Of a stretch of DNA of 55,393 nt, positions 28,930-51,289 are shown piece after piece. The notes below the pieces were generated by a model, which made no database searches, was not told the origin of the DNA, and saw only the letters and a program-made list of their open reading frames with translations. Both the position numbers and the translations under genes were made by a program. This DNA comes from a bacterium. Its GTDB lineage: Bacteria; SZUA-79; Acidulodesulfobacterales; Acidulodesulfobacteraceae. The stretch covers positions 1 through 55,393 of the forward strand of contig JAKAOK010000010.1 of the NCBI GenBank assembly GCA_021812245.1, read 5' to 3'. The first letter of the stretch is position 1, and each line of letters begins with the position of its first letter.

Positions 28930-28969
28930 ATATTACGGTTTTATGACGTTTATGTTAAATTTTTGTAAT
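28930..28969 (-). promoter_or_regulatory. Predicted Pho box array, 4 units (small protein - PHS transporter)
   Basis: Read on the minus strand, the heptamers ATTACAA, TTAACAT, GTCATAA and GTAATAT are separated by 4 bases each, an 11-bp period. This 7+4 design is that of PhoB/PhoP binding sites. A TAGAAT -10-like hexamer follows about 10 bp downstream. Almost the same 40 bp is found before the CHAD-ppx-ppk operon at 35113-35152. Confidence 0.75.
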
Positions 28970-29017
28970 ATTAACTTCGTTAGTTATATTATCGTATTCC
29001 GCAGCAGATTAGGGGCA

Positions 29018-31039
29018 TTAATCCTGCTTTGCTAATTTGAGACAGACCCGCTCCTGGCAGTTAAATTTAAGATTCTTCGGTTCAGCCATGGCATATACTC
29101 CGTCCGTAAGATACCATGATTTCAAGTTGTCTTTGATGTTGTATTCGAGTATCTCCATAAGCAGGTTTTTAGACTCCGCATCCTTGATTTCTAAAAATAG
29201 CTCTATTCTTTTATCTAAATTTCTCGTCATCAAATCAGCGGTAGAGATAAAAACCCTTTCTTTTCCGCCGGCATAAAAATAGAATATCCTTGCATGTTCT
29301 AAAAATCTTCCTATTATGCTTTTTATCTCGATATTTTCGCTTAGGCCTATTATTCCGGATTTTATGGAACAGATGCCCCTCGTTATCATTTTTACGGTCA
29401 CCCCCGATGCCCCCGCCGAGTAAATCTTATCGGTCATTTCACCGTCGAATACCGAATTCACCTTGATTATTATTTCAGCGCATCTCGCTGCTTGAGCCTC
29501 GCTTATCTCAAAATCTATTAGTTCTGCGAGCGTTTGCCTTAGATTTACGGGGGCCAACTTTATTCTGCTCCACTTGTATATGTCCGAGTAACCCATCATA
29601 TAATTGAACATATTCGATATTTCGGAACAGGCTTCCTCTTCTGTGGTAATATAATCTGCGTCCGTATAAATATTTGCGGTATATTCATTGTAGTTTCCCG
29701 TAGAAATATGGGCATATCTCACGATTTTACCTTCTTCTTTTCTTGTTGCAAGAAATATTTTCGCATGTATTTTTTTATCGGGAAAACCGTAAGTTACGAT
29801 GCATCCAGATTCTTCCAGTTTCTTTGCCCATTTTACGTTTTTTTCCTCGTCGAACCTCGCTTTAAGCTCTACTACCGCACATACATGCTTTCCTTTTGAT
29901 GCCGCATTTGCCAGCGCTTCCACTATTTTGGAATTTTTATCCGTCCTGTATAAAGTCATCTTTATAGAAAGCACGTTTTTATCGTTTCCCGCCTCGGCAA
30001 TCCACTTAGATACAATTTTAAAGTCGTTGCAAGGCCTGAAAAGTAAAATATCTTTCCTTTTTGCGATATCGAAAATACTTTTATTTTTCAAGTAATCTGG
30101 GATTGCCGGCTTGAAAGGCTTGTAATATAAACCCCTGTTTTCTTCTTTAATATTAAGCAGAAACGACAAATTAACGGGACGGTTCGTTATGTATATATCT
30201 TTATCTTCATAATCCACGTCTATTCCTAAATAATATTTTATTTTATTCATTAAACCGTCCGTAATTTCCCTGTCGATTTCGACTCTTACGATGTTGCTCC
30301 ATTTTCTGGCTGAAATGTTTTCTTCTATCACAGACAAAAGATCTTCTACATCCTCGTGTCTTATAGGTAAATCGGCATTTCTGGTTACCCTGAATAAAAA
30401 ATAATCCTTTACCGCATATCCCGGAAATATTTTATCTATATACCTTTCTATAATGTTTTCCGGGGTAAAATAATATGATTTTTTAGATTTTTTAATTTTA
30501 TAAACCTTCTTTACATTTTCGGGAATTATAATCAAAGAATTTAATATCCTGTTTTCCCGTTCGAGTTCTACAAAAAAACATAATTTCAGGTTAAAAATAA
30601 ACGGTATTTTGTCTATTTCCGAAATTATAACAGGGGTAATTACGGGCGAGATTTCGGAGTAGAATATTTCGTCTAAGATTTCCATATCAAAAGGCTCTAC
30701 CGGAAATATAAGAATCTTAAGCATCAAAAGTTCTAATGCGAGGGCGTTAAAAATTGAAGCGCTTTCCTTAATCTGCCTATGGACTCTAAAGGAAATTTCG
30801 TTTAATATTTCTGACGGAGTAAAGCCGGATATATCTCTTTCTTTATAACCCGCCGATACCAAATCCTTCAATCCCGCCACTCTTATCATGAAAAACTCGT
30901 CTAGATTGGTGGAATGTATTGCTAAGAATTTAAGTCTTTCGCATAGCGGAACGGTTCCGTCGTACGCCTGCATAAGCACTCTTTCGTTAAAATCGAGCCA
31001 GCTTAATTCCCTGTTGTTATAAATGCGGACGCTATTCAT
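29018..31039 (-). CDS. ppk1: Polyphosphate kinase 1
   Basis: A 673-residue enzyme that reversibly polymerises the gamma-phosphate of ATP into polyphosphate. It has the N-terminal helical domain (NRELSWLDFNERVL; LAIHSTNLDEFFMIRVAG), ALANAASKGKHVCAVVELKAR in the middle, and the two PLD-like C-terminal domains with KIHAKIFL and RFLEHARIF, the regions of the conserved active-site histidines; YAHISTGNYN is present. It is intact. It is the last gene of CHAD - ppx - ppx-like - ppk1, its start overlapping the ppx-like end by 8 bp. A Pho box array precedes the operon. Confidence 0.96.
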   Translation of the reverse strand: MNSVRIYNNRELSWLDFNERVLMQAYDGTVPLCERLKFLAIHSTNLDEFFMIRVAGLKDLVSAGYKERDISGFTPSEILNEISFRVHRQIKESASIFNALALELLMLKILIFPVEPFDMEILDEIFYSEISPVITPVIISEIDKIPFIFNLKLCFFVELERENRILNSLIIIPENVKKVYKIKKSKKSYYFTPENIIERYIDKIFPGYAVKDYFLFRVTRNADLPIRHEDVEDLLSVIEENISARKWSNIVRVEIDREITDGLMNKIKYYLGIDVDYEDKDIYITNRPVNLSFLLNIKEENRGLYYKPFKPAIPDYLKNKSIFDIAKRKDILLFRPCNDFKIVSKWIAEAGNDKNVLSIKMTLYRTDKNSKIVEALANAASKGKHVCAVVELKARFDEEKNVKWAKKLEESGCIVTYGFPDKKIHAKIFLATRKEEGKIVRYAHISTGNYNEYTANIYTDADYITTEEEACSEISNMFNYMMGYSDIYKWSRIKLAPVNLRQTLAELIDFEISEAQAARCAEIIIKVNSVFDGEMTDKIYSAGASGVTVKMITRGICSIKSGIIGLSENIEIKSIIGRFLEHARIFYFYAGGKERVFISTADLMTRNLDKRIELFLEIKDAESKNLLMEILEYNIKDNLKSWYLTDGVYAMAEPKNLKFNCQERVCLKLAKQD

Positions 31040-32579
31040 AATCCAGTTTTACGGCAAGCTCTACCGGTATTCCGAATGTTTCGAGAAAATCCGTAGATTT
31101 TAATTTAAAAAACTTTATCTCCAGAAAAGGCGTAACCGAAGAAACTGCGGTGATATTTACCGCTTTATCGGATACTTCTAATCTTATATCCTTTATTAAC
31201 TGCATATGGCTTGCATCGAGAGCATCGGCTATCTTTAAAATCGAGATTACCTTTTTTATAGTAAGCTCTCTTTCCGAACTTACCTTATCCTTATAATAAT
31301 GCGGCGCCATATCCGAAAAGGAATATTCGCCGCTTCCATGAAAAAATGCGCAAAATGCAATATTTTCTAATACCTCCCTGTTTAAACCGGGGATATTTAA
31401 AGAATTAATTATTCTATAAGAATATTCATGATGGTCGTTTATATTAGTATAATACCCTATATCGTGAAGAACGGCCGAGCCTATAAGGGCGGCTCGCTCG
31501 TCCGGCTTAATAATAAGAATATTTTTCAACGAACGGCGTATTTTTTCAGAAAACATAAGAACCTGTTTGGCATGTTTGTCGTCTATGTTAAATTTTTTCC
31601 CGAAGTAAAAAAAATATTCTATTAATTTTTTATTAAATTTCTTTTCTTTTGTTTTTATAAGATAAAACCGGGTAAGCTGGTCGGAAAAGTTCTGGTCGGA
31701 AAAGTAAAGTTTTTTAGCTCCAACCGATTTCATTATGGATATATAAACATATAAAACGGGCTTTAAAATCTTAGCGTCGTAATCATTTATAGATAATTCG
31801 ACGCAGATTTCAGGGACAGGTATCGTTTTTATTTTTAAATAAAGACCGGTTAAATCGGAAATATCGAAAAAATGCCCTTCCGGTTTAAATATTTCCGATA
31901 GCAGACCGGTGGACGTATCGGAACCTATGACCGACGTAATTTTATCGTATTCGGCACAACTTTTCTTAAGCAATAAGACAAGCTTATTTATATATTGCTC
32001 GTAAGCTCTGTATTTAACCCTTTCCTCTATATCGCTGAACAATTGGAAAATTCTGAGTGCGCCGTAGGGAAGGGTCGATGAAAATAGGGGGATTTTATTT
32101 TTTCTAATATTAATACCTACGTTTCCGCTGGACAGATTGACTAATACCGCCCCCTTGCTTTCTAATTTTTTAAAACCCTTAAGCGTTTCGCTTACTCCAA
32201 GATATTTTATGTAAAGTTCGTCGTTTTCATCGATTATTTCAAGCTCTATCCCCGTTCTAACCCTTATATGGTTTATAAAAAAATGTTTATTTTCCGCGTC
32301 TCTAACGGCGCTCGTACACACCGCTCTGTAGTTACCGGTTATACCATATTCTTTGAATTTCAGTTTAATCTTGCTAAAAATTTCGGCCGCACGATAAACG
32401 GTATCGAAAGTTATATACTTTTTCAGAAACGTATCCATTCCTATACTTAACGGAAAAATTATATACTCAATGGTCTTTATGCGCCATCCGGCGTCCGAAT
32501 TTTTTGAAACCTCCGAAATTTGGCATCTTATGCCGCCCGCCCCTATATCTACTATTCCAAATATTATGTCTGATTTCAT
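31032..32579 (-). CDS. Ppx/GppA-like protein with degenerate phosphatase site and HD domain
   Basis: 515 residues with the same layout as its neighbour: an N-terminal ASKHA (Ppx/GppA) domain of about 300 residues and a C-terminal HD-type domain (LHDIGYYTNINDHHEYSY near residue 390). The catalytic parts are eroded. The phosphate-binding loop, DIGGGSGE in the neighbour, reads NLSSGNVG here, and the SGEEEA segment that carries the catalytic Glu reads DENDEL. It therefore probably binds polyphosphate or regulates rather than hydrolyses it. It overlaps ppx (ATGA) and ppk1 (8 bp), which implies tight co-translation. Confidence 0.85.
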   Translation of the reverse strand: MKSDIIFGIVDIGAGGIRCQISEVSKNSDAGWRIKTIEYIIFPLSIGMDTFLKKYITFDTVYRAAEIFSKIKLKFKEYGITGNYRAVCTSAVRDAENKHFFINHIRVRTGIELEIIDENDELYIKYLGVSETLKGFKKLESKGAVLVNLSSGNVGINIRKNKIPLFSSTLPYGALRIFQLFSDIEERVKYRAYEQYINKLVLLLKKSCAEYDKITSVIGSDTSTGLLSEIFKPEGHFFDISDLTGLYLKIKTIPVPEICVELSINDYDAKILKPVLYVYISIMKSVGAKKLYFSDQNFSDQLTRFYLIKTKEKKFNKKLIEYFFYFGKKFNIDDKHAKQVLMFSEKIRRSLKNILIIKPDERAALIGSAVLHDIGYYTNINDHHEYSYRIINSLNIPGLNREVLENIAFCAFFHGSGEYSFSDMAPHYYKDKVSSERELTIKKVISILKIADALDASHMQLIKDIRLEVSDKAVNITAVSSVTPFLEIKFFKLKSTDFLETFGIPVELAVKLDYE

Positions 32580-34120
32580 GCGGTTTTAAGATAAACGCGC
32601 TTTCCCGTAATTTTTTCCATCAAGTCTTTTTTAGTCTCTAAGGCTTCGGTTTCTAATGGAATATCCTCCTCGTAAACTGGATTAACCGCAATAATTTTAT
32701 CCGTAACCGACGGCTTTATATCCGTCACATTCCCGTTATGCTCCCTGTCGAGAGCGTCGGCAACTCTCAGTATCGAAGCAAGTTTGATTACCGCGTCCAT
32801 ATCTCCTTCTCTTATATCGCCGTAAATATCATGGGTTTTTTTGGGAAGGCTTTTTCTGTGGTATCTTGCTATATTGGCAATTATAGCCTTTTCGTAATCG
32901 CTAAAACCCGCTAAGTCGATATTTTTTATCAAATAAAGCGAATGTTTATGATGCTTGGACAGCGAAACGAAGTTTCCGATATCGTGAAGCATTGCGGCGG
33001 CTATAAGATATTTAAGGTATTCTTTTGCAATTCCGTATGATTCTTCTAACGCGTTAAAAAGCCGTTCGGACAAAAATGCGACCTGTTTCGCATGTTTTTC
33101 GTCAAATTTAAATTTGTTTCCGATTTCGCTGAACATTGAAATCGGAAATGTCTCTTCGTAATTTTTTTCGTAAGTTTTTTTAACCGCCATTACAACCCCT
33201 CTTTTATTTAATTCATCCAGCAACAGCCCCGTCATTAATCCCCCTCTAAACGAATAAAAGCCTTTAAGGCGGAAACGGGTAATTATTTCGTAAAGTATTA
33301 TAGCCGCAGGAACTATAATATCGGCTCTCCATGCATCTACGGCCTTTATCTTTTTTATATCAGCCGCAGAACTGTTTTTATTTACATCGATAAAGTCTTC
33401 AAGGAATAATTTGGAAACATAATTTATTCGGGAATCCGGCTTTTTATTGTTAATAACGCAATAAACCGCCGCCAGATTATTTACCGTTCCGCCGGTGCAA
33501 ATTGCTTCGTCGAGACCGATATCTCCGAACCCGCCCAGACTTTCCTTTATAAAAGCCTTCATCGCCGATATTTCCAAATTATACGGCGGGCAATTCCCTG
33601 AAAAATCGTTTTTCAGCCGTAAGCATCCAAGCGCCGTGCTTGCCGATTTCAAAATCTTTCCGCGTTCGACTACCGTAATTTCTCCGCTTCCTCCGCCGAT
33701 ATCGACTATTACGGAATTGAATTTTCCCAGATTAAAACTTCCTAAAACGGCTAAATACGACAATTTTGCTTCTTCCTCACCGCTTATTATATCTAAATCT
33801 ATGCCGCAGGTTTTTTTTATTTCCGACACCGTCTCTTCTTTATTTTTTGCATACCTGAAGACCGCCGTTCCAACCGCTCTTATCGCATCGGTTTCATTTA
33901 ATTCGATGATTTTTTTGATATGCTTTAGCGCTTTAAAAAGATTTTTTTTGGATTCGCCGGTTATATAACCGGTTCTGAAGCAGTCGCCGCCTATTCTCGC
34001 CGCAACTTTATATTCGTCTATAACCGCATAGCTTCCGCCTTTTGCCTCTACTATCTGAAGTTTTATAGAATTGCTTCCGGCATCGATAATCCCCAGCTTA
34101 AATGGCCTTTCCCTTTCCAT
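32576..34120 (-). CDS. ppx: Exopolyphosphatase (Ppx/GppA)
   Basis: A 514-residue polyphosphatase/pppGpp phosphatase. The N-terminal ASKHA domain has GIIDAGSNSIKL (residues 9-20), SGEEEAKLSYL (near 117) and VDIGGGSGEITV (near 140), all with canonical catalytic and phosphate-loop residues. The C-terminal HD-like domain has AAMLHDIGNFVSLSKHHKHS near residue 370. It is active by sequence. It follows the CHAD gene by 18 bp and overlaps its degenerate paralogue by 4 bases. Having degradation and synthesis enzymes in one operon suggests control of polyphosphate turnover. Confidence 0.94.
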   Translation of the reverse strand: MERERPFKLGIIDAGSNSIKLQIVEAKGGSYAVIDEYKVAARIGGDCFRTGYITGESKKNLFKALKHIKKIIELNETDAIRAVGTAVFRYAKNKEETVSEIKKTCGIDLDIISGEEEAKLSYLAVLGSFNLGKFNSVIVDIGGGSGEITVVERGKILKSASTALGCLRLKNDFSGNCPPYNLEISAMKAFIKESLGGFGDIGLDEAICTGGTVNNLAAVYCVINNKKPDSRINYVSKLFLEDFIDVNKNSSAADIKKIKAVDAWRADIIVPAAIILYEIITRFRLKGFYSFRGGLMTGLLLDELNKRGVVMAVKKTYEKNYEETFPISMFSEIGNKFKFDEKHAKQVAFLSERLFNALEESYGIAKEYLKYLIAAAMLHDIGNFVSLSKHHKHSLYLIKNIDLAGFSDYEKAIIANIARYHRKSLPKKTHDIYGDIREGDMDAVIKLASILRVADALDREHNGNVTDIKPSVTDKIIAVNPVYEEDIPLETEALETKKDLMEKITGKRVYLKTA

Positions 34121-34138: not shown

Positions 34139-35029
34139 CTATCCATTAAGCATCCGGATAAAAGATTTTATATCTTTATCGCCTTCAAAAGCTTCCGTCA
34201 GTTCTACAATATTTTTTCTGTCGGCATCAAGCGCTTTTCTTATATCGCTTCTTATTGCCTTGCTGTTATCTACTAATTTTTTAAAATTATCTATCTGAAC
34301 GATTTTATCGTGGGCGGCTCCAAGCGCTTCCTGTATTTTTTTTACGTCGCTTATTATCTTAATAATCATATCCTGCTTGATTACATCGGCGGAAAACTCG
34401 AGTATATACCTAAATTCTTTAAAAACCAGCCTCAGCATGTGCAGTTCTTCGTTATCTAAGGACGTATTTTTTATGATAATTCTTAATTTTTTATAAGTTT
34501 TTTTTATCATTAAAGAAAAATAATCCGCAGGTTCTGTTTCGTCTAATTTATTTATAAATAATGCGCCCTTTTTAACGGCTTCTTCTAAATCCATAAGAAA
34601 ACCGTTAAATTCCCGGGAGCCTATAATGGATAAAACCCTGCCCTGCTCGATTCTTATTTCTTTTTCTATCTTTAACCTGATTTCTTCTTTCTCTTCTTTT
34701 ACATATAAATCCAGCGATTTAACAAGAACGTCTAAGTCTCTTTTTCGCTGGGTTTCCTTCATTATTTTCGTCAATTTCTTTTTGAAATATACGCCGTCGC
34801 CGCTAAGTTGTTTTCTGAATATTTTCAATAATGTTTTAGCGCGCCTTGCCGCAACTCTAAAATTATGCATATTCTCATCGTTTTTCCCTTCTATAACTCC
34901 GGGCATTTCGCCTTTTATCTCCTCCAGCAGAGAATTTAATATCTTTCCCGAAATTTCTTCGAACGTCATATTTTTATTCAAACCGTAAAATGATTTTATA
35001 GGCAAAACCGGCACCTCCGTTTTTATCAT
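34139..35029 (-). CDS. CHAD-domain protein (polyphosphate-binding)
   Basis: 296 residues, mostly helical and rich in Lys/Arg/Glu. The CHAD pattern is clear: NMHNFRVAARRAKTLLK near residue 53 and LHMLRLVFKEFRYILEF near residue 200, with KKIQEALGAAHDK between later helices. CHAD domains bind polyphosphate through conserved basic residues (the HxxR repeats) and locate to polyphosphate granules. It is the first gene of the ppk operon and is preceded by a Pho box array (35113-35152) with a repeat-derived sequence in the leader. Confidence 0.92.
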   Translation of the reverse strand: MIKTEVPVLPIKSFYGLNKNMTFEEISGKILNSLLEEIKGEMPGVIEGKNDENMHNFRVAARRAKTLLKIFRKQLSGDGVYFKKKLTKIMKETQRKRDLDVLVKSLDLYVKEEKEEIRLKIEKEIRIEQGRVLSIIGSREFNGFLMDLEEAVKKGALFINKLDETEPADYFSLMIKKTYKKLRIIIKNTSLDNEELHMLRLVFKEFRYILEFSADVIKQDMIIKIISDVKKIQEALGAAHDKIVQIDNFKKLVDNSKAIRSDIRKALDADRKNIVELTEAFEGDKDIKSFIRMLNG

Positions 35030-35056: not shown

Positions 35057-35112
35057 TTATTATTAAAAATTTAATAATTAATTAATAATAATGATATTAT
35101 TATATATTTTAA

Positions 35113-35152
35113 TTGTTACGGTTTTATGACGTTTATGTTAAATTTTCGTAAT
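35113..35152 (-). promoter_or_regulatory. Predicted Pho box array, 4 units (CHAD-ppx-ppk operon)
   Basis: On the minus strand: ATTACGA, TTAACAT, GTCATAA and GTAACAA, each separated by 4 bases. The inner units and spacers are identical to those at 28930-28969. A TATAAT hexamer follows about 10-12 bp after the last unit. Confidence 0.75.
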
Positions 35153-35153
35153 A

Positions 35154-35987
35154 TTAACATTTAGGTAAGTCGCCCGAAGGACGCCCTATATAAAATCCCT
35201 GCGCAAAATCCACGCCTAATCCCTTTACCGATTCCATAATTTCGGCAGACTCTATATATTCGGCTATAGTTTTAATTTTTAGCTCCCTTGCTATGGTTAC
35301 GAGGCCCATAATTACCGTCCTATCCATAATTCCGCCCTTAACTATGCCCCTCGAGAATTCGCCGTCTATTTTAATAAAATCGACCGGCAGATATTTTAAG
35401 TATAAGAACGAATTATAGCCTGAACCGAAATCGTCTATGGCAAACCTGAAACCTTCGAATTTGAGATTGGAAACGAATTTTTCGAGAAGAGATATATTTT
35501 TAACTGTATCTCTTTCTGTTATTTCAAGCACGATATTTTGTGGATTTATGCCGTATTTTAAAGCGCAACCTTTAACGGAATTTACATAATCGGAAATTAT
35601 CACCGATTTAGGCGACATATTGATAAAAATAGACCCGCCGTAATTTTCATCGCTAATTTTTTTAAAAGCTTTTTCTATAAGGCAATAAGTCCATCTTGTA
35701 AGCGACGCCTATATTTTCGGCGGTTTCTATAAATTCCCCTGCCGTAATTATATTTCCGTCTATGTTTATCCTCATGAGAAGTTCGCTAAAGCATAAATTA
35801 CTTTGTGCTTCTTCGTTGTCGTTAAGGCCTTTTATCGGTTGAAAATAAGGCAATATAAGGTCGTTTTGAATAGCGTTCATAATTATATTCTTTTTTTCGT
35901 TAATTTCTTTCAAAACCAGTTTAAAATCATTTTCGAGAAAAATGTGAACGGCGTTCTTTCCGGACATTTTTGCTTTGTACAGCAATA
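35154..35987 (-). pseudogene. GGDEF-EAL protein, truncated and frameshifted
   Basis: Remnant of a cyclic-di-GMP turnover protein. The 5' part begins with the last residues of a GGDEF domain (LLYKAKMSGKNAVHIF) and the start of an EAL domain with ELL in place of EAL (FSELLMRIN). Near 35680 the frame shifts, and the rest (INMSPKS, VLEITERD, IDDFGSGYNS, DFIKIDGEF, TIAEYIE, AQGFYIGRP) continues in another frame to 35154. The N-terminal sensor and most of GGDEF are missing because IS3 sequence is fused at about 35987. The EAL half could only be expressed from an internal start. Confidence 0.88.
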
Positions 35988-36677
35988 TGGCCTGCCGTAT
36001 TTTAAAATTGCCTTTTTTACCGTGTTAATGCAAAAGTTAGGGTCTAATGTATTAGAGAGTTGTAAGATAAAATCTTTCTGGTATATACGTCTATTAATGC
36101 CGATAAGTAGGCGTAGCCTTTGATAAGCTTTAAATACGTTATGTCCGTTTGCCACACGTGGTTCGGATGCGACGGCGTTATATTTTTCAAGAGATACGGA
36201 TATTTTTCGTGCTCTTTATTGTTGAAAGACAGGCATCTTTTTGGGTATATCGGATAAAGTTTCAGTTTCTTCATAAGTTTAAGGACGAGTTTTCTGCCTA
36301 TGTACATTTTCAATTTCTCGAGTGCCTTTTTTACTTTTCTATGGCCGTAATACGCAGACAGGCGTTTATAAAAGCAAAGCTTTTATGCCTGCCGGAGTGG
36401 CTTTTTAATATATACCTTCACGATTTCCTCCTCGTAATAGCTGTTATCTTTAATTTTAGGATTATAATATAAAGAGCTGGCGGTTAAGACCTAAAAGCTC
36501 GCACTGCCTTGATAGGGGAAGTTTGGAATCCTTCTCTATTAGGGCGCTCTTATCTATATTTTTAATAGTTGCTCGTATTTTTTTTTTAGAAACTCGTTTT
36601 CTATTCGGAGCTTGCCTATCTCTTTGTAAAGATCGCTTACGTCCAAAGAGTCCTCTTTTTTAACATGCCTGCCGTCG
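35988..36677 (-). pseudogene. IS3-family OrfAB remnant
   Basis: Read on the minus strand: an OrfA C-terminal coiled coil (DLYKEIGKLRIENEFLKKK, ending at about 36547), a run of ten A that would serve the usual -1 frameshift, OrfB beginning with ALIEKDSKLPLSRQCELLG, then SAYYGHRKVKKALEK, HPNHVWQTDITYLK (first catalytic Asp) and LIDVYTRKILS, and in another frame LSNTLDPNFC..AILKYGRP. It stops there, joined to the GGDEF-EAL remnant. OrfA lacks its start and OrfB its C-terminal third. A palindromic insert with an in-frame stop lies at 36357-36384. Confidence 0.85.
36357..36384. repeat. Palindromic insert element, copy 3 (in IS3 remnant)
   Basis: ACAGGC, GTTT, then ATAAAAGC-AAA-GCTTTTAT and GCCTG(C). 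It has the same plan as copies 1 and 2: outer arm, GTTT, inner hairpin with xAAAGC/GCTTTx. It separates the PLRQ and RLSAYYG segments of OrfB and brings in a TAA stop. Confidence 0.55.
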
Positions 36678-42654: not shown

Positions 42655-42734
42655 ACTTTTCTTATCCTCCTAAAAAAATTAAGATTATTTTAATTAAATT
42701 TGCTTTTAGAAATCAGGTATAGTTTATCAGACGG

Positions 42735-42817
42735 ATCTTACGTTATTATTACAATTGCATTAAATTATTGTTAATATTTGCTACAATTTTGCTACAATTT
42801 TGTTGCAATAATGTTAC
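42735..42817 (-). promoter_or_regulatory. Extended Pho-box-like array, 8 units (TonB receptor 1)
   Basis: Read on the minus strand from 42817: GTAACAT, GCAACAA, GTAGCAA, GTAGCAA, TTAACAA, TTAATGC, GTAATAA, GTAAGAT. Spacers are 4 bases except one of 3. A ninth weaker unit (ATATTAC) precedes it. The end is about 80 bp from the receptor start. Such a long heptamer series suggests cooperative loading of several regulator dimers. Confidence 0.72.
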
Positions 42818-42901: not shown

Positions 42902-43237
42902 ATGGAGATTATACTTTTTTATATTTACGATTTCGCCCTTGCCGTATATTTCGGTTCGAGCATATTTGTTGGTTTTATTGCCGCGCCCGTTATTTTTAAA
43001 ACATTAAAAACCCGAAACGAAGCCGGAAATTTGGTCGGGCTTTTGCTCGAAAAGTTTGCAGCGCTTACTTATGTGACGCAAATTATACTTATCGCAAGCG
43101 GAGCTGGATTGTCGTTTTATTTTAATTATCCGTTGGCGGTTATCGTTTTACCGGTATTTATAATCGTTATAAATTTCATATCTAATAAAGCGATAAGCTC
43201 TTTCGTTACTCTTAATTTAGAGGTCAAATTCGATTAA
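42902..43237 (+). CDS. DUF4149-like small membrane protein
   Basis: 111 residues from the ATG at 42902; an in-frame ATG at 42851 would add 17 residues but overlaps a repeat. About four membrane segments. GSSIFVGFIAAPVIFKTL and AGNLVGLLLEKF match the DUF4149 (TMEM205-like) pattern. The function is unknown. It is the only plus-strand gene in this half of the window; its 3' end overlaps the convergent lipoprotein gene by 4 bases. Confidence 0.65.
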   Translation: MEIILFYIYDFALAVYFGSSIFVGFIAAPVIFKTLKTRNEAGNLVGLLLEKFAALTYVTQIILIASGAGLSFYFNYPLAVIVLPVFIIVINFISNKAISSFVTLNLEVKFD

Positions 43238-43665
43238 TACCGCCAATATGGACCCGGGCCTATCCACGGACCAAACGGCGGACCAAAATACCACTGTCGG
43301 TTATACCACCACCATCTGCGCCTTGCGCCCCTAATTGCCGCCTGCTCTTCTTTTGCTCTTATCCCTGTTTTAAGCATATAGTTCAATACCTTTGGGCAAA
43401 CCCCCTGCTTATGCAGTTTTATTATTTCGCCTGCATTAAGGTAAAATACCTCCCCGCTTGCCCTTAACCTGTCAATTATTTCTTTTTGGGGGATATGATT
43501 TTTACACATCGATACAATCTGAGGGATAGAAAGCGGGGGCGGGGTAGGCTTTGTTACGGCGGCACAACCGGAAACGGCCATACCTGCCATAAAAATTACA
43601 CTAACTATTAACGGCAGTTTTTTAAAGTTCTGCCCCGCCGTTTTTCCTGTCGGTTTCTTTTTCAT
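43234..43665 (-). CDS. Putative lipoprotein with aromatic, glycine/proline-rich tail
   Basis: 143 residues from the ATG at 43665 (a longer frame to 43731 would only add lysine-rich sequence complementary to an acidic gene region). A signal of 20 or so residues ends in the lipobox VSGC, so it is probably lipid-anchored. A short helical domain, QKEIIDRLRASGEVFYLNAG and KQGVCPKVLNYML, resembles repeats found in other envelope lipoproteins. It ends RRRWWWYNRQWYFGPPFGP, unusually rich in Trp and Tyr. It overlaps the preceding acidic gene by 44 bp and belongs to the phosphoesterase transcript. Confidence 0.65.
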   Translation of the reverse strand: MKKKPTGKTAGQNFKKLPLIVSVIFMAGMAVSGCAAVTKPTPPPLSIPQIVSMCKNHIPQKEIIDRLRASGEVFYLNAGEIIKLHKQGVCPKVLNYMLKTGIRAKEEQAAIRGARRRWWWYNRQWYFGPPFGPWIGPGPYWRY

Positions 43666-43837
43666 CCCCTGTTCCCTCCTCTTCAAACCATTCTTTATCT
43701 TCAATTTCTTCTTCTTCGGCTTCTTCTCCAATTTCTTCTCTTTCGGATTCTTCTTCTTGCTCCTCTTCCAAATCTTTTAAATCGGACAATAAGTTTGATG
43801 CGGTATTGTAACCGCTTTCCTCCACATATAAATCCAT
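43622..43837 (-). CDS. Small, extremely acidic protein
   Basis: 71 residues from the ATG at 43837, chosen because GGAGGATATT lies at ideal distance; an ATG at 43852 overlaps that ribosome binding site. More than a third of the residues are Glu or Asp, mostly in one block (EEEQEEESEREEIGEEAEEEE). No signal peptide and no recognised family. It may bind metal or basic protein, but composition alone cannot say. It sits 71 bp after the phosphoesterase gene and overlaps the lipoprotein gene. Confidence 0.5.
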   Translation of the reverse strand: MDLYVEESGYNTASNLLSDLKDLEEEQEEESEREEIGEEAEEEEIEDKEWFEEEGTGDEKETDRKNGGAEL

Positions 43838-43908: not shown

Positions 43909-45099
43909 CTACGAAAGAAAGGCATCCTCGAACCCGTTTGCGTACCTATCCCTGTCCGTCAGCGGATCAAGCCCCCATAGGTTTTCTACATATTTAAGTA
44001 CCGAGGCATGCTCATGTCTGACATTCGAGATATATCCCTTTTTAACGAACGGAGAAATAATTATGCATCCTACCCTCATTCCAAGCCCGTAGTAATCGAC
44101 AACAGGGGGTACGACATGGTCATAGAAACCGCCGCATTCATCCCAGTTTAAAAATATTGCCGATTTCGAAAACAGACGGCTTTTTCTTAAAGCTTCAATC
44201 CGTTTTACGGTATAAAGCATGCCTGTTTTAACATCTGCCGGCGGGTGCTCGGAATTTTTAAAATCAGGAACAAGCCAGCTGAACTTGGGGAGCGTCCCAT
44301 TTTTTATATCCTCGAAATACTCATTGGCCGGCCTGATCTTATTCCATAACCTTTTATCCTTCATAAAACTTTCGAACCATATAACCGGCACCCAGTGATG
44401 AATATATTTTTTTGGATTCGGCCAGCCCTCCACATATATTTTCCACGATATTTTTGCTTTTTCAAGCCTGTTGAATATTGTGGGAAACTCGTAAGGTTTT
44501 TTTGGAGGGGCGTCGGTTATATGTCCGTTTGACTGTCCTGCAATCTGATAAAGCCTGTTTGGCTGGGTCGGAGCCATAATCGAATGAAAATAGTTCTGAC
44601 ACAGCGTGAAGTTAGAAGCGTATGAATAATAAGGGTATAAAGCCTTTTTGGTATCGTAATAGCCCATTACGACCTTATAATCGTCAATCGGCTGATTTAT
44701 CCCGTTTAAGAAATACCCGTCCATCCTGCCATTATTGTATATCGTATGCAGCCCTTCCCAAGAATGGTTGGGGTCAACCCGGTCGGGGGTTATATAATTG
44801 TATCCTAAATCGTAGGGCTTAATGCTTCCGCCCATGCCGTCGGTTATTCCAAGCTCTAAGACCATTTCGGGCTGCCCGTTTATCGTTTTATCCATCATGC
44901 CGAAATAGTGGTCGAAACTTCTATTTTCCTGCATTATCAAAACTATATGTTCGGGCTTTTTAAACTTATTTTTAAAAGAACCGGTGGTGGAACTCGCACT
45001 CGTGCCTAAAGCATTTGCATCTTTAAGTCCAAAACTGCCTAAAGCTAATCCGCCTAAAAAACCTAATCCGGTTAATTTTATAAAGTCTCTTCTGTTCAT
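43909..45099 (-). CDS. Tat-exported PF04185 phosphoesterase (phospholipase C/acid phosphatase type) 1
   Basis: 396 residues. The N-terminal twin-arginine signal MNRRDFIKLTGLGFLGGLAL indicates Tat export. The core motif HIVLIMQENRSFDHYFGMM (residues 51-69) with the catalytic Thr/Asn/Glu region of this family, NHSWEGLH near residue 120, NSEHPPADV and NWDECGGFYDHVVPP near residue 320 are all present. It would hydrolyse phospholipids or phosphate monoesters in the periplasm. It is about 70% similar in layout to the protein at 52583-53770. A frameshifted four-cysteine gene and a Pho box array precede it. Confidence 0.92.
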   Translation of the reverse strand: MNRRDFIKLTGLGFLGGLALGSFGLKDANALGTSASSTTGSFKNKFKKPEHIVLIMQENRSFDHYFGMMDKTINGQPEMVLELGITDGMGGSIKPYDLGYNYITPDRVDPNHSWEGLHTIYNNGRMDGYFLNGINQPIDDYKVVMGYYDTKKALYPYYSYASNFTLCQNYFHSIMAPTQPNRLYQIAGQSNGHITDAPPKKPYEFPTIFNRLEKAKISWKIYVEGWPNPKKYIHHWVPVIWFESFMKDKRLWNKIRPANEYFEDIKNGTLPKFSWLVPDFKNSEHPPADVKTGMLYTVKRIEALRKSRLFSKSAIFLNWDECGGFYDHVVPPVVDYYGLGMRVGCIIISPFVKKGYISNVRHEHASVLKYVENLWGLDPLTDRDRYANGFEDAFLS

Positions 45100-45155: not shown

Positions 45156-45344
45156 TTAATCGTCATAATATTTGAAGTCGAAAGTAACTCTAATCGTCTG
45201 CCCGCATACGAGACAACTTTTAGCAAACATATCGTAAGCCTTTTCGATATCCTTTCCCGCAAGCGGGATATCGAAACTGCTTCTTCCGCAGCCGCATTCG
45301 ATATCTATTCCACATTTCTTAGACTTAGACATAGGAAGCGGCAA
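45156..45344 (-). CDS. Small four-cysteine protein, paralogue B (C-terminal part)
   Basis: 62 residues with CGC near the middle and DIEKAYDMFAKSCLVCG then TIRVTFDFK, clearly homologous to the C-terminal half of the protein at 28579-28848. The nominal start is TTG (45344) with GAGGA 8 bases upstream. The N-terminal half that paralogue A has appears here in the overlapping frame 45305-45451, so this may be the rear part of a frameshifted gene. Four Cys suggest a zinc site. It precedes the Tat phosphoesterase gene by 56 bp. Confidence 0.65.
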   Translation of the reverse strand: MPLPMSKSKKCGIDIECGCGRSSFDIPLAGKDIEKAYDMFAKSCLVCGQTIRVTFDFKYYDD

Positions 45345-45451
45345 TCCGAAAGTCCTCTTATTAATATTAATATATTTCTAACGGATATAGGGCTTTGTAT
45401 AAACTCCCTGTCGGCTTCATCAATATTAAGATTAGAAGCTGAGTTTTTCAT
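45305..45451 (-). CDS. Short frame, probable N-terminal half of paralogue B
   Basis: 48 codons starting MKNSASNLNIDEADREF with a strong AAAGGGGGA ribosome binding site. SPISVRNILILIRG resembles the NAVLMRSKFLNIIKRQ helix of the full-length paralogue at 28579-28848. A -1 shift near 45345 would join it to the four-cysteine part. Either a sequencing or real frameshift, or a programmed one, would explain this; I cannot tell. Confidence 0.5.
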   Translation of the reverse strand: MKNSASNLNIDEADREFIQSPISVRNILILIRGLSDCRFLCLSLRNVE

Positions 45452-45575
45452 ACAAATCCCCCTTTTTCATATTTATTTTGATAAACTTCCAGGATTAATT
45501 CTGTATTAACCCCGGAAGCTCAATGGGAGGTGAATAAATTTTACTTACAGTATTACTAAAATCTTAACATATTAA

Positions 45576-45615
45576 ATATTACAATTGCGTTAAGATTGCG
45601 TTAAATTTATATTAC
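45576..45615 (-). promoter_or_regulatory. Predicted Pho box array, 4 units (small protein B - phosphoesterase 1)
   Basis: On the minus strand: GTAATAT, TTAACGC, TTAACGC and GTAATAT with exact 4-base spacers (40 bp). The two middle units are identical. It lies 125 bp upstream of the ATG at 45451. The rest of the 45452-45772 gap shows nothing else I can support. Confidence 0.75.
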
Positions 45616-45772: not shown

Positions 45773-46210
45773 CTAATCGGAATAGTCGCTTTCGTCGTTA
45801 TGCGTCCGCGCCGAAGGATTGACCGCGATAGAAACCCTTAAGAACCCGTCCTTTTTTATAATATCTATAGTTTTTACGATACGCTTCAAATAAATTTTTT
45901 TATCTCCGTTTATAATAATCAAATCCTTTTTATTTGTAATTCTTTGCTTTAATAAAGCCGGAAGATTATCGAGCGTGGTTTTTTCTTTATTAAGATAGAC
46001 TGCCCCGCCTTTCTTAAGGGTTATCGTAAAATTATGCAGTTTAACGGCGGAACCCTGCGACGACTTCGGCAGATTAACGTTTAAACCTTTCTGATGCACC
46101 ATTGCAAGGGTCACGAATATGAAAAATATCAAGAGAAAAAACATCGTATCTATCATAGGAATTAATTCTATTCTTGCTTTTTTGGCTTCCTGTTCTTTAA
46201 AAAGTTTCAT
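45773..46210 (-). CDS. exbD: Biopolymer transport protein ExbD
   Basis: 145 residues. A single N-terminal membrane segment (about 20-40) is preceded by RIELIPMIDTMFFLLIFF, with the essential membrane Asp in the PMIDT motif; the C-terminal periplasmic domain contains KKDLIIINGDKKIYLKR. Together with ExbB it uses the proton gradient to energise TonB. It is the last gene of tonB - exbB - exbD on the minus strand, 71 bp after exbB. The set is preceded by a Pho box. Confidence 0.92.
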   Translation of the reverse strand: MKLFKEQEAKKARIELIPMIDTMFFLLIFFIFVTLAMVHQKGLNVNLPKSSQGSAVKLHNFTITLKKGGAVYLNKEKTTLDNLPALLKQRITNKKDLIIINGDKKIYLKRIVKTIDIIKKDGFLRVSIAVNPSARTHNDESDYSD

Positions 46211-46281: not shown

Positions 46282-46992
46282 TTAAGCAATCTCCTTTGCC
46301 GCAATCTGTATATTTTTATTCTCGAACTGAATCTTTTTTTCGTTTGTTTTGAAGCTGTTGTTATCTTTCAAATCGTTTCTTTTTATAAAATTTTCAAATT
46401 GCAATACCACAAATTCCATTTGCTTTTTAATTGAGATAATTTTATTTTGAAAATAATTAAAAAACCCCAAACAAAGTATCGCAATAATAAGACCGGCCGC
46501 CGTATTTAAAAGAGCCAGGGCAACGCCGCCGGTAATAGCGGTAGGATGCGATACGCCGGTTTTACTTATTACATTAAATGAAACCATAATTCCGATTATC
46601 GTCCCCAGCAGTCCTAAAAGCGGCGCCATCGTGATTAAAGTATCAAGAATCCAGATATATCTTTCCATTTCCTTTGTATGCCTCATCGCCTCTTCCGTCA
46701 AAACTTCGTCCCTTTCCTCTTTTGTCAAACAAAGATTGTTGAAACCTACTAAAAGAAGTGAAGAATAAATACCGGGATGTTCGTTGCAATATTCCTTGGC
46801 CTTTTTAAGCCCGTTATCGGTTTTTAAAATGTTTTTAATCTCTTCCGTGAAAGATGAACCCGTTTTAAGTACGCTATGTAAAAAATAAAACCTTTCGACT
46901 ATGACGGTAACAGCGACAAGAAGCAATGCCAGCATAACATACATAAGCGGCCCCCCGTCGAATAACACCCCTAAACTGTGTATTATAGGCAT
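46282..46992 (-). CDS. exbB: Biopolymer transport protein ExbB (MotA/TolQ/ExbB proton channel)
   Basis: 236 residues with three membrane segments (about 15-35, 118-140 and 155-180). The conserved LDTLITMAPLLGLLGTIIGI near residues 116-135 and TAITGGVALALLNTAAGLI near residue 152 form the proton-channel helices. A charged C-terminal tail is cytoplasmic. It lies 86 bp downstream of tonB and upstream of exbD, forming a dedicated TonB complex among several receptors. Confidence 0.93.
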   Translation of the reverse strand: MPIIHSLGVLFDGGPLMYVMLALLLVAVTVIVERFYFLHSVLKTGSSFTEEIKNILKTDNGLKKAKEYCNEHPGIYSSLLLVGFNNLCLTKEERDEVLTEEAMRHTKEMERYIWILDTLITMAPLLGLLGTIIGIMVSFNVISKTGVSHPTAITGGVALALLNTAAGLIIAILCLGFFNYFQNKIISIKKQMEFVVLQFENFIKRNDLKDNNSFKTNEKKIQFENKNIQIAAKEIA

Positions 46993-47078: not shown

Positions 47079-47798
47079 CTATCTCCGATTTAATTTAAAA
47101 TGTATTTTTATTAAAAACGTCATCGAACCTCTGTTTATGCCCCTCGGAAACGGCATAAACGGAGCAGATATTCTTATAGTCTTAATAGCGGATGAGTTTA
47201 AAACATTATATATGGAAGATTTATCGATTTTTTCAAAAACTAAATCTCCGTCTTTCAGTATCTTAAATAATACTTTTACGTTTCCTTCCATTCCCTGTCT
47301 TCTTGCATATCTAGGATAAATCAAATTACTTTCTATCTTTGCCTTTATTTCGCCGAAATATTTATCCAGCAAACTTACGCTTGCACTCTTTGAAGCCTGA
47401 TAAACCGCCGGATGCTGAATAACCGGAGAAACGGCGGCTAAGGGAACGGAAACGGGAATTCGATTAAACTTGACCGGATTAATTGCTTTTAAAACTTTTT
47501 TAACTCTTTTTATTACCGGCTTTTTATATAATATTTTTTTTAACTTCTTAACCGGAACTACTTTCTTCTTATGATTAACGATTGTCTTCTTTTTTCTCGG
47601 TACGTTAATTATGGAAATAAGCATCGGCTTTACGTGCTTAACCGGCTTCAAATAATTTTTAAGTATGATTGAAACTTCCGCGATTAGGAGCAAAAAAATA
47701 ATTTCAAGAATTAATGCGATTATAAACGAATATTTTAATCTTGTGTTTTTATCCGGAAATTCTCTTATAATATTTTCCATAGATTCCCAATTTAACAT
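47079..47798 (-). CDS. tonB: TonB energy transducer
   Basis: 239 residues. One membrane segment (about 22-46) anchors it in the inner membrane; a periplasmic linker rich in Lys and Val (KKVVPVKKLKKILYKKP) replaces the usual Pro-Glu/Pro-Lys linker; the C-terminal domain has IYPRYARRQGMEGNVKVLF-like residues (YPRYARRQGMEGNV) near 160 and MTFLIKIHFKL at the end. It spans the periplasm to contact outer-membrane receptors. The first gene of tonB-exbB-exbD, preceded by a three-unit Pho box (47840-47868). Confidence 0.9.
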   Translation of the reverse strand: MLNWESMENIIREFPDKNTRLKYSFIIALILEIIFLLLIAEVSIILKNYLKPVKHVKPMLISIINVPRKKKTIVNHKKKVVPVKKLKKILYKKPVIKRVKKVLKAINPVKFNRIPVSVPLAAVSPVIQHPAVYQASKSASVSLLDKYFGEIKAKIESNLIYPRYARRQGMEGNVKVLFKILKDGDLVFEKIDKSSIYNVLNSSAIKTIRISAPFMPFPRGINRGSMTFLIKIHFKLNRR

Positions 47799-47839
47799 TA
47801 AAATATATTCATCGAACCATTTTATTAAACTAAATATTG

Positions 47840-47868
47840 ATATTGCAAAATTATTACGTCTTCGTTAA
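47840..47868 (-). promoter_or_regulatory. Predicted Pho box, 3 units (tonB-exbB-exbD)
   Basis: On the minus strand: TTAACGA, GTAATAA and GCAATAT with 4-base spacers (29 bp). It ends about 42 bp before the tonB ATG. The units are less perfect than elsewhere but in the same 11-bp register. Confidence 0.6.
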
Positions 47869-47889
47869 ATTTTATAAAAGTAATATAAA

Positions 47890-47967: not shown

Positions 47968-50292
47968 TTAAAATGTCACGTTTACCCCTGTAAAGAAGTT
48001 TATAGGTTCTCCAGGGTAAACAAACGCCATTTCTTGACCTGTGCTGTCCGGGGTCAAAAATGCAGGATTGTAATAACTCTTGTTGAATAAATTATACACG
48101 TTTAAAAATACTTGAATTTTCTTGAAATAGACATTATTCTCCAATCCTAAAAGAGACGGCTTAACGTTGTATGCGAGATGCAGATTTACGATATTGAATG
48201 ACGGGACGGTAAACTGCGGGGCGGCGCCGGTCGCTCCATAATCTATAAGATTTTGGGAACCGGTATACCTGTCGGATATCCTGCCTATAAAATTGTATTT
48301 TTTATAATTCAATCCTACGTTATACATTATCTGAGGTACGAACGGTTCTTCGAGCCCTGAAACGTTTTCCTGGTTTGCAGGCGCTCCGCCCAGCCCCTGT
48401 ATGTAGTCGTTAAAAACCGCTACGGTATCCGAATAGTTGCCGTCAGCCGAAAAACCTTTGCCGAGCCTGACTAAAGCCGACGCCATAAAACCTTTTAAGG
48501 CGGTCGAACCAGAGGTTGACGGCTCCGAAATCATAGAGCCGCCTTCAAGGACGCTTATACTGTTAAACTGATTAAACAATCTGTCGCTGAATCCCTGCAA
48601 AGAAAGCCTCATCTTTTTGTCGGCATACCTGATGCCGCCCTGATAATCGTAAACTTTTTCAGGAGCAATACTTTCCGATGCAGGCGGGGTCGATGTATTG
48701 CCTTTATAGGCAAAAATTGCAGGCGGAGCAAACGATTCGCCTGCTCCTGCAAATACGTTGAGATTTTTGGTCAAAAGATACTCTATGCCGCCAGATGGCA
48801 ACGCAACATATATCGAATTTCCCCCGTTGGGTCCGCCGTGTCCGGTATTATACTCGGGACTTGAAGGATTTAGCATATCTATGTACTGCTGGGCAACCGC
48901 CTGAAGCCTTATACCCGCTTTTATTATAAGTTGATGCAACGGTTTATATTTATCCTGAAAGAATATTCCGTATGATTTTTGCGTATATAATGCATTGCTG
49001 CTGCCGCCCGTTATGTTATTCGAATCAGGGGGCAAAGTAAAATATTCGGATGAAAAGTAGCTAATCCTTGCGCCTGTTTCGAAACTGTTATTTGCCGGCA
49101 GTTTAAAATATAACGTAGGAATCTCGCCGTACTCTATATTATGCGCCTGTTCGTAATCATACAGGAACCCGCTTGAAGTCATCGGATATTGCGCCGATAT
49201 ACTCGTGCCTGAACCGGTAGCCGGAACAAGAACTTGACCGGTAGGCTGGTCGAAATAATAAAGATTATTTAAAAATTTTATATTGGGAAATAATTTATCC
49301 TTAAACTGCAAAATCCCCAGAAATCTTGAATAATCCCACTGTTTATAAAACGGGCTTGTTTCAAGATACTGTCCTTCCGGATAAGTAGTATTTTCGCCGT
49401 TGGGAAGACCGTTGTATTTTGAACCGTATAAGTTTAAATCTTCTACCGAAACAGCGCCTCCTCTGTCGTAATTCTTTTTATTGCCCATCAGCATTAAAGA
49501 GAGTCTTCCGCCTCCGGTAAAACGTTTCGTAACGTTAATATAATATTGCTGCTGTGAAAGATTCGTATAATCCCTGAAACCGCTTATTCCAATATTCGTA
49601 ACATCAACGAAGACGCCCGCGCCGTTTTTGCTTATGCCGCTGTTTGCGTAAAGCGATTCTTCGTTTAAACCGTAGGAACCCATTCCGTCGAGAGTTCCAT
49701 AATAACGGTGCTTAGTAGGATAAAGCGTGGTAATATTAATATGCCCTCCGACATCCCAGTTACCCAAATTATTTGCGTCAGTTACGCCTCTTTGGATTTG
49801 TACGGATTTAATATCGTTATTCATTAGTCCAAGGTCGTAAATCTCTCCCCCGTCTGCATCGTTATTAATCGGAACGCCGTCTATCGTAAATTCTATCCCG
49901 CTGACTCCTATACCCGGCGTGTTTCCGCCGCCAACTGTATATCCATCCATTTCAAAAAAATTATATCCGCCCGACAACTCGTTATTGCCCGACCTCGAGT
50001 ACGCATTTATACCTGCATGCTGTTTTAATATGTAAGAAGGAGAAACGCTGGGCGCCTGCTGAAATTCTTTTTTCTTAATTACGGTTTTGATGCCGATAAA
50101 CTTGGACGGCTTATTTTTTTTCTTATTTTTCTCGCTTGAACTTGTGGAACTTGTTATTTTTCCCAGATAATAACCAGATGAAGACTGCCATGCCGCTGCG
50201 GAATGTATGCCTCCGATAAAAAAAATAACTAAAAAGTAAATAATGATAAAATAACTTCGTATTCGTATTTCTTTCCTAAATCCCATTTCCAT
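47968..50292 (-). CDS. TonB-dependent outer-membrane receptor 2
   Basis: 774 residues. A signal peptide (hydrophobic core about 13-31, ending near SAAAW) is followed by the plug domain (QAPSVSPSYILKQHAGINAY, EFTIDGVPINNDADGG, SVQIQRGVTDANNLGNWDVGG) and a barrel ending NFFTGVNVTF. The ligand is unknown. It follows the TPR gene by 56 bp in the same direction, so it shares that gene's six-unit Pho array. It is paralogous in plan to the receptors at 40294 and 53824 but diverged in sequence. Confidence 0.9.
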   Translation of the reverse strand: MEMGFRKEIRIRSYFIIIYFLVIFFIGGIHSAAAWQSSSGYYLGKITSSTSSSEKNKKKNKPSKFIGIKTVIKKKEFQQAPSVSPSYILKQHAGINAYSRSGNNELSGGYNFFEMDGYTVGGGNTPGIGVSGIEFTIDGVPINNDADGGEIYDLGLMNNDIKSVQIQRGVTDANNLGNWDVGGHINITTLYPTKHRYYGTLDGMGSYGLNEESLYANSGISKNGAGVFVDVTNIGISGFRDYTNLSQQQYYINVTKRFTGGGRLSLMLMGNKKNYDRGGAVSVEDLNLYGSKYNGLPNGENTTYPEGQYLETSPFYKQWDYSRFLGILQFKDKLFPNIKFLNNLYYFDQPTGQVLVPATGSGTSISAQYPMTSSGFLYDYEQAHNIEYGEIPTLYFKLPANNSFETGARISYFSSEYFTLPPDSNNITGGSSNALYTQKSYGIFFQDKYKPLHQLIIKAGIRLQAVAQQYIDMLNPSSPEYNTGHGGPNGGNSIYVALPSGGIEYLLTKNLNVFAGAGESFAPPAIFAYKGNTSTPPASESIAPEKVYDYQGGIRYADKKMRLSLQGFSDRLFNQFNSISVLEGGSMISEPSTSGSTALKGFMASALVRLGKGFSADGNYSDTVAVFNDYIQGLGGAPANQENVSGLEEPFVPQIMYNVGLNYKKYNFIGRISDRYTGSQNLIDYGATGAAPQFTVPSFNIVNLHLAYNVKPSLLGLENNVYFKKIQVFLNVYNLFNKSYYNPAFLTPDSTGQEMAFVYPGEPINFFTGVNVTF

Positions 50293-50348: not shown

Positions 50349-51098
50349 TTAAAAAGATTTTTTGCGTTTTTTATAAGCTATTGCTTTTTTTACGACATAA
50401 ATTGCTTTACTTATCATTTTATTCTTAGAATTAAATTTATAAGCGTCTTTAAGGTCGCGCAATGAATGTTCGAGCTCGCCCGATGCGTATTCCGCCCTGC
50501 CTTTTATAAAATAGGCGTAAGAATCGCTTGGATTATTTTTTATCACCTTATTTGCATAAAATATTGCTGTTTTTAGCCGGTTAGGATTACTGCTTTCGTA
50601 ACCCATGGCAAGATTTAAAGTTAAAAAATTGGCGAGCCGCTTCTCGGACGCATAACCGAGTCCTTTTTTGTATAACTTTATTGCGGAGTTAATTTTCCTT
50701 TCTTTTAAAAGATTATTGCCGGTTAATAAATAATTAAGGGCAATGCCATTTTTTATAGATGATAAAAATTTATTCGGATTCTTAAAGTTTTTTGACTTTA
50801 ACACGGAAATAATCGATTTTTTATAATAAACAGTGCTGAGTTTATATTGTTTTTTAAACTGAAGTACATTAGCTGCAAGTTCGTAAGTATATGGATTCTT
50901 ATTTTCTGTTAAAGCTTTTTTTGCGTATTCTAAGGCAGAATTGTATTTTTTATTTTTTAATGAACTTACTGCTTTATTATAATTTGTTTGCCATTTTACC
51001 AAAACCGCGGCTTGTGAATTTACGGTCAAGCCGGAAACAATATATACCGCCATCAAACATAAAAAAATATAGAACGGCAAAGTCCTGATATTATTCAT
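50349..51098 (-). CDS. Exported TPR-repeat protein
   Basis: 249 residues from the ATG at 51098, chosen because GGAG lies just upstream; a longer frame to 51167 runs through a hairpin and has no ribosome binding site. An N-terminal signal or anchor (about 8-28) is followed by TPR-like units (YNSALEYAKKALTENKNPYTY; INSAIKLYKKGLGYASEKR; SYAYFIKGRAEYASGELEHS split as motifs). It ends in Lys/Arg. TPR proteins beside TonB receptors often act as periplasmic partners of TonB systems. It is the first gene after a Pho array. Confidence 0.8.
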   Translation of the reverse strand: MNNIRTLPFYIFLCLMAVYIVSGLTVNSQAAVLVKWQTNYNKAVSSLKNKKYNSALEYAKKALTENKNPYTYELAANVLQFKKQYKLSTVYYKKSIISVLKSKNFKNPNKFLSSIKNGIALNYLLTGNNLLKERKINSAIKLYKKGLGYASEKRLANFLTLNLAMGYESSNPNRLKTAIFYANKVIKNNPSDSYAYFIKGRAEYASGELEHSLRDLKDAYKFNSKNKMISKAIYVVKKAIAYKKRKKSF

Positions 51099-51135
51099 AA
51101 AAACTCCAAAATATTTAATTCCGTTAATTTTTAAA

Positions 51136-51172
51136 GACCCTTGCGGAAGACTGTAAATTTTCCGCAAGAGTC
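51136..51172 (-). promoter_or_regulatory. Leader hairpin before the TPR gene
   Basis: GACTCTTGCGGAA and TTCCGCAAGGGTC pair at 12 of 13 positions around an 11-nt loop; on the minus strand it is followed by TTTAAAAATT. It lies between the Pho array and the TPR start, so it could be a leader attenuator or mRNA-stabilising stem. Confidence 0.45.
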
Positions 51173-51229
51173 GGTTTATTGCCTATGAGAGGAAAGGAAA
51201 TAAACTATTGATAATAGTTTAGCAAACTA

Positions 51230-51289
51230 ATGTTACGGGATTATTACATTTACATTAAGTTTTATTAAATTTTGTTGCGGAATTGTTAC
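51230..51289 (-). promoter_or_regulatory. Predicted Pho box array, 6 units (TPR - TonB receptor 2)
   Basis: On the minus strand: GTAACAA, GCAACAA, TTAATAA, TTAATGT, GTAATAA and GTAACAT, with spacers of 4, 3, 3, 4 and 4 bases. A TAAACT/TATTAT region follows. It ends about 130 bp before the TPR ATG. Confidence 0.68.

Follow-up and report, generated by a model that had tools for sequence, protein, structure and literature searches.

Heptamer arrays before phosphate, polyphosphate and TonB genes of an Acidulodesulfobacteraceae bacterium as probable Pho boxes of a phosphate-starvation regulon

Results and discussion

Six tandem heptamer arrays in a 55,393-nucleotide stretch of the genome of an uncultured Acidulodesulfobacteraceae bacterium (contig JAKAOK010000010.1 of assembly GCA_021812245.1; this whole stretch is called the window) are very probably Pho boxes of a phosphate-starvation regulon, which is the best explanation of the whole pattern that we can draw from sequence. 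In the assembly (G000; 1.78 Mb, 61 contigs, 87% complete) it corresponds to contig C46. The original prediction had proposed such a regulon from the window, and it gains support from a box before pstSCAB-phoU, from boxes before pstS in four of four relatives and from a PhoB-like regulator. At the level of the DNA we demonstrate the boxes, their geometry, their genome-wide association and their conservation; PhoB binding, the phosphate response, the cargo of the TonB receptors and the roles of the lineage-specific parts are what we infer from them.

Six arrays with Pho-box geometry

The arrays have the positions and sequences that were originally described. All lie on the minus strand and each faces a minus-strand gene.

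Box A, 28916..28969, minus strand: four heptamers and the −10-like hexamer TAGAAT; before a small cysteine protein and a PHS-like transporter; homologous box at L052:4545-4595
Box B, 35099..35152, minus strand: four heptamers and TATAAT; before CHAD-ppx-ppx-ppk1; homologous boxes at L053:176-227 and G014:C52:7924
Box C, 42721..42817, minus strand: eight heptamers in our reading, one linker of 3 bp and the rest of 4 bp, and TAAACT; before TonB receptor 1
Box D, 45562..45615, minus strand: poor −10 hexamer at the standard spacing; before the second small cysteine protein and a Tat phosphoesterase
Box E, 47826..47879, minus strand: three clear heptamers and the poorest −10 hexamer at that spacing; before tonB-exbB-exbD
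Box F, 51216..51289, minus strand: six heptamers with 3- and 4-bp linkers in our reading, and TAAACT; before a TPR protein and TonB receptor 2

When their last heptamers are aligned, the arrays consist of four heptamers with 4-bp spacing, 8 bp and a hexamer, as in box A (ATTACAA AAAT TTAACAT AAAC GTCATAA AACC GTAATAT, 8 bp, TAGAAT). Tandem 11-bp (7+4) repeats stand upstream of the targets. Over 16 sites (the six window boxes and ten others, four of these weaker), the match to TATAAT is maximal at offset 8 after the last heptamer, with 3.94 of 6 positions against 3.38 at the next offset. In the E. coli pstS promoter, about 8 bp also lie between the last unit and the −10 element. A study of the E. 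coli Pho box (PMC4415409) describes units of 11 bp, in which seven bases are well conserved and four less so, with a CTGTCAT core, on which PhoB sits head to tail. Compared with those boxes, the arrays here are richer in A+T and reach eight units before receptors.

The sites are 75-83% A+T, as they would be if the arrays were a chance periodicity of AT-rich intergenic DNA. That explanation has practically no probability left and we regard it as already refuted. With all six sites in the matrix the boxes score 27.1-35.1 and the next-best place in the window 19.9; the maxima of 60 Markov shuffles of the window and of 60 AT-rich 55-kb Markov sequences are 19.5 and 19.8. When each box is left out in turn (matrices of the 29-nt core, both strands of the window), it still ranks within the window's top six. 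A 13-site matrix, which includes the six window boxes as training sites, gives six matches in the window and none in 481 kb of unrelated AT-rich loci. The motif was not seen equally often in AT-rich DNA, and the position of the boxes is conserved over genera.

The box before pst genes and in related genomes

A genome scan with a weight matrix had been named as a check of the original prediction. We ran a sequence-only model, trained on boxes A-F alone, over the whole genome, and it found the same kind of site before pstSCAB-phoU (C22:159158, E-value (E) 1.8e-6). PstS, PstB and PhoU of this operon are identified by NCBIfam (PhoU also by Pfam), and PstC and PstA by position and look only. In each genome scan the first 150 candidates were scored, which here means 150 of 1321, and among them 11 matches outside the window had E<0.01. 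These include:

C31:68537: before a TonB receptor truncated by the contig end
C22:104159: before uppP/BacA
C24:2197: before another TonB receptor
C24:640: before a Phd-PIN pair
C31:67121: before a small cysteine protein, then Phd-PIN
C5:12510: before a 438-amino-acid protein with an HNH-like stretch by eye and no Pfam match

The nearest records by Ppk1 are the metagenome-assembled genomes 'clean584' and 'TL1-5.bin112'. At locus L053 a box precedes CHAD-ppx-ppx-ppk1, and at L052 boxes precede a GGDEF-EAL gene and a small cysteine protein with a transporter. In four relatives (G003, G014, G016 and G019) the 13-site model gave 46 matches at E<0.001. Loci were available for 30 of them, and a blastp comparison with a set of 33 reference proteins (32 from this genome, one from L052) gave a match for 21. 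A box precedes pstS in all four relatives. In one or two relatives each, boxes precede pstC, the transporter, CHAD-PpxA, PpxA, tonB-exbB, exbB-exbD, TPR-tonB, the 968-amino-acid phosphoesterase, TonB receptors, uppP, the small protein, the 438-amino-acid protein and Phd-PIN.

A PhoB-like regulator

The genome has three Trans_reg_C domains, on contigs C13, C19 and C31. The best NCBIfam model for the C13 regulator is PhoB (TIGR02154, 248.3 bits), and its recognition region, RTVDVHIRRLR, is similar to that of E. coli PhoB. We think that the C13 regulator is PhoB. The best candidate for PhoR is a 429-amino-acid kinase on C4 (C4:54263-55036, 144 bits against a cut-off of 334).

OmpR-family regulators bind similar tandem repeats, and the boxes might belong to the C19 or C31 regulator and answer envelope stress rather than phosphate. 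The presence of three Trans_reg_C domains speaks for this, as does the position of the C31 domain, a 71-amino-acid open frame about 3 kb from boxed genes. We consider it quite improbable, given the sites before pstSCAB-phoU here and pstS in the relatives; the C19 regulator also reaches 148 bits to PhoB against 248 for C13, and it adjoins a kinase and, by eye, a Spy/CpxP-like gene.

Several points weigh against a phosphate-starvation regulon under PhoB. The C13 regulator lies below the TIGR02154 cut-off of 296.2. PhoR is above its cut-off in none of 29 genomes, but it is so in just one of 14 control genomes too. Among the 11 off-window matches, C48 is inside a coding gene, C10 and C6 are at contig ends, C35:40557 (L037) is a good box without a downstream gene on its strand, and two are on C24, a possibly mis-binned contig. 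Nine of the 30 loci of relatives lack a reference match: by eye, two of these boxes precede genes of porin-like proteins and one an ssb-like gene, which leaves six. Weaker sites may have been overlooked with 150 candidates per genome. The TonB receptors weakly resemble haem and siderophore receptor models, and for this reason their cargo may be something other than a phosphorus compound.

Genes behind the boxes and a proposed mechanism

The genes originally assigned to boxes A, B and D need three corrections. The transporter does follow box A, but it is not the first gene; the small cysteine protein precedes it. The operon behind box B holds two ppx-like genes rather than one. The small protein between box D and the Tat phosphoesterase is a second copy of the small cysteine protein.

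27108..28550, minus strand: MFS transporter; closest to the phosphate:H+ symporter model TIGR00887, where 320 bits fall short of the cut-off of 610
28579..28848, minus strand: small cysteine protein ZnR1, 89 amino acids, CxC...CxxC
29018..31039, minus strand: polyphosphate kinase 1 (Ppk1), TIGR03705, above cut-off
31032..32579, minus strand: second Ppx/GppA-like protein, more divergent
32576..34120, minus strand: Ppx/GppA family, exopolyphosphatase-like, below NCBIfam cut-offs
34139..35029, minus strand: CHAD-domain protein
36910..39816, minus strand: 968-amino-acid protein, propeller-like front and phosphoesterase domain
40294..42654, minus strand: TonB-dependent receptor 1
43234..43731, minus strand: lipoprotein-like protein, 48% to its G014 copy
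43909..45099, minus strand: phosphoesterase, phospholipase C / acid phosphatase family; by eye, its start MNRRDFIK is Tat-like
45156..45344, minus strand: second small cysteine protein of the same family, with a stop inside a longer profile match
45773..46210, minus strand: ExbD
46282..46992, minus strand: ExbB
47079..47798, minus strand: TonB of the receptor-cluster type
47968..50292, minus strand: TonB-dependent receptor 2
50349..51167, minus strand: TPR protein, TPR_2 barely above the Pfam cut-off and other repeats below
51463..55254, minus strand: NHL propeller protein, second phosphoesterase (Tat-like start) and plug-less receptor near the contig end

No box was seen before the window copy of the 968-amino-acid gene, while its homologues in G014 and G016 do follow one, and none was seen before the genes at 51463..55254. 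On C24 a relative of the lipoprotein-like protein separates Phd-PIN from a TonB receptor, and in G014 one comes after Phd-PIN.

In the mechanism that we propose, low phosphate would lead to phosphorylation of the PhoB-type C13 regulator, which would bind the heptamers in tandem and recruit RNA polymerase to the −10 element that lies 8 bp beyond them. Four arms would make up the core of the regulon. Pst (pstSCAB-phoU) and the PHS-like symporter would provide high-affinity uptake; CHAD, the two Ppx-like proteins and Ppk1 would turn over polyphosphate; exported enzymes of phospholipase C and acid-phosphatase type would free head-group phosphate; and most TonB receptors of the lineage would act with their own TonB-ExbB-ExbD, possibly to carry a phosphorus compound or carrier-bound phosphate across the outer membrane. 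Phosphorus would thus be brought in by the receptors and Pst, and the store handled by Ppk1 and Ppx. Two further parts would be specific to the lineage, namely the small cysteine protein and a Phd-PIN pair whose active site is altered.

TonB receptors and their own TonB-ExbBD

Seven genomes examined contain 18 plug-domain TonB receptors, none of them in G003. An upstream same-strand box (E<0.001) is present at 15 of the 18, or at 13 of 16 without the training loci L213 and L219. L207 and L221 have no upstream box, and L210 has one with E 0.016 at best. At L219 and L220 the box is about 1 kb upstream; a TPR gene intervenes at L219, which is in the window, and probably also at L220 of G016.

TonB_C proteins number 20, of which six were assigned to a cluster type by position and profile coverage (243-261 amino acids). 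Each of the six receptor-bearing genomes has one cluster-type TonB, and the receptor-less G003 has none. Within the fetched DNA, four of the six have an upstream box, training site E included, and a fifth, in G016, follows exbB-exbD, which is itself boxed. For the 14 other TonB_C proteins, no box was seen upstream with E up to 0.1.

The company that the receptors keep suggests that they carry a phosphorus compound. They might instead be iron or siderophore receptors under phosphate control. These bacteria probably inhabit acid mine drainage, in which phosphate is bound by ferric iron, and co-induction may follow from such binding. This alternative, which seems rather unlikely to us, draws on the weak matches to siderophore and haem receptor models. 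It also draws on Tan et al. 2019 (PMC6776010), who describe TonB receptors of Ca. Acidulodesulfobacterales as receptors for siderophores. It has to face the Pho-type boxes at most receptors and the boxed TonB or ExbBD of these receptors in five of six genomes. Our results suggest that the receptors labelled there as siderophore receptors, probably of the same order, would be phosphate-starvation equipment.

Phosphate regulons with TonB receptors are of a known kind, since they appear in studies on Caulobacter and Flavobacterium. The PhoB regulon of Caulobacter crescentus (PMC11208175) contains phosphatases and phospholipase C besides pst and several TonB receptors, and our regulon is alike in the probable PhoB-type control of these classes. 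It differs in lineage, in the boxes at 15 of 18 receptors and at the receptors' own tonB-exbBD, and in its small cysteine and Phd-PIN modules. In the Pus systems of Flavobacterium (PMC8115612), TonB transporters, lipoproteins and phosphatases are induced when phosphate is depleted, as is a Ppk-like protein. SusCD-type pairs occur there, whereas here receptors stand with TPR or short lipoproteins; SusD had no match among 30 window open reading frames scanned. The boxed receptor majority, the lineage-only small cysteine protein and the boxed Phd-PIN with an altered site are new. The outcome is a set of boxed genes, together with two protein modules that are as yet unstudied.

A small cysteine protein of this lineage

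The small cysteine protein (CxC...CxxC) was found only in this lineage. In a profile search, 19 of the 30 genomes from this taxonomic family had a match and none of 261 others did; 252 of the latter were unlisted, match-free genomes taken as outsiders. In this genome three copies were found, each of them behind a box. A same-strand upstream box is present at 20 of 23 loci, counted without two genomes found only by the later profile search, and at 18 of 21 once the two training loci are set aside; none stands upstream at L139, at L150 or at the fragment L147. The protein is missing from G014 and G016, nearly complete genomes of the family that have boxes, and it is therefore not essential to the regulon.

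Its invariant residues include four Cys. The ratio of nonsynonymous to synonymous substitution rates (dN/dS) is 0.08-0.18 in seven pairs and 0.08-0.16 in six pairs of the ZnR1 subfamily. The first member scores 15.6 bits to the CSL zinc finger (PF05207), short of the gathering threshold of 29.2, and three of 21 members match PF05207 at E up to 1. An internal stop interrupts the matched stretch in four of 25 profile matches, including the window's second copy. That copy (window 45156-45451) looks interrupted when compared with L148.

The Phd-PIN pair

A search with the C24 PIN gave 15 matches in 11 of 31 genomes; 14 sequences were aligned, and the fragment L199 was left out. A Phd-like gene adjoins PIN in 14 of 14 loci, the adjacency of type II toxin-antitoxin systems, and as in Phd/YefM-PIN_3 pairs the Phd-type gene directly precedes the PIN_3 gene. 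The boxed pairs differ by their place behind a Pho box and by their active site. All eight PINs with at least 55% identity have a same-strand box upstream, roughly 300-770 bp from PIN. Six of the seven other PINs have no box, and L193 has one about 1.4 kb upstream and another downstream.

The first Asp of VIDTNVF and the DLKF motif are positions that we take to be catalytic. In the eight boxed PINs the first Asp is replaced by Arg, Arg, Ser, Ser, Ser, Glu, Asn and Asn, and DLKF has become FLKF in all seven that are readable, so that the acidic active site is not intact in boxed copies. L193 is intermediate (Cys at the first Asp, YLKF), and five other aligned copies keep Asp and DLKF. The boxed PINs form one clade (seven rows, support 100/100, with L192 and L195 dropped from the tree), and box and site change are therefore one event, not eight; the tree gives no order for the site change and the gain of the box. 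The dN/dS of boxed PINs is 0.17-0.42 (six pairs) versus 0.07-0.13 in three unboxed pairs. These values are below 1, which argues against decay. The L192 PIN has an internal stop. Our reading of these sequences is that the regulon acquired the pair, which probably lost its cutting activity.

We suggest tentatively that in what looks like a former toxin-antitoxin pair the Phd-type protein, its PIN partner no longer cutting, could serve as a phosphate-responsive regulator or sensor beside TonB receptors, together with a lineage-unique small metal-binding protein, and that the receptors would serve phosphorus and not iron.

The C24 PIN is 99% identical to the G014 PIN, whereas the transporter and pstS of this genome and G014 are 84% and 86% identical, and a Ppk1 piece on C24 is 82% identical to the window Ppk1. 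Contig C24 (G000:C24:1-5141, L015) may therefore be mis-binned or recently transferred. The C31 Phd-PIN copy, on a 70-kb contig, is independent of C24.

Other observations

Boxed proteins of 461-479 amino acids in G003 (L158:1669-3051) and G014 (L156) look by eye like outer-membrane porins; neither Pfam nor NCBIfam gave a match for the L158 copy. An ssb-like gene is boxed in G019 (L181) and has a weak box (E 0.086) in this genome (G000:C31:1648, L039). A six-heptamer array (G000:C49:43965, L044; E 0.3) precedes small genes that appear conjugation-like by eye, three of which were scanned and have no Pfam match.

Boxes A and B share an exact 21-mer (28938-28958 and 35121-35141), which at up to three mismatches has seven matches in the genome against one for the reversed pattern. 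The gene order around these boxes is unlike that of L052, and recombination between the boxes may have moved the EAL and ppk blocks. At window 35154-36313 a GGDEF-EAL gene lies in pieces beside a transposase-like open reading frame (by eye), and L052:2272-4563 holds an intact 763-amino-acid homologue with its own Pho box.

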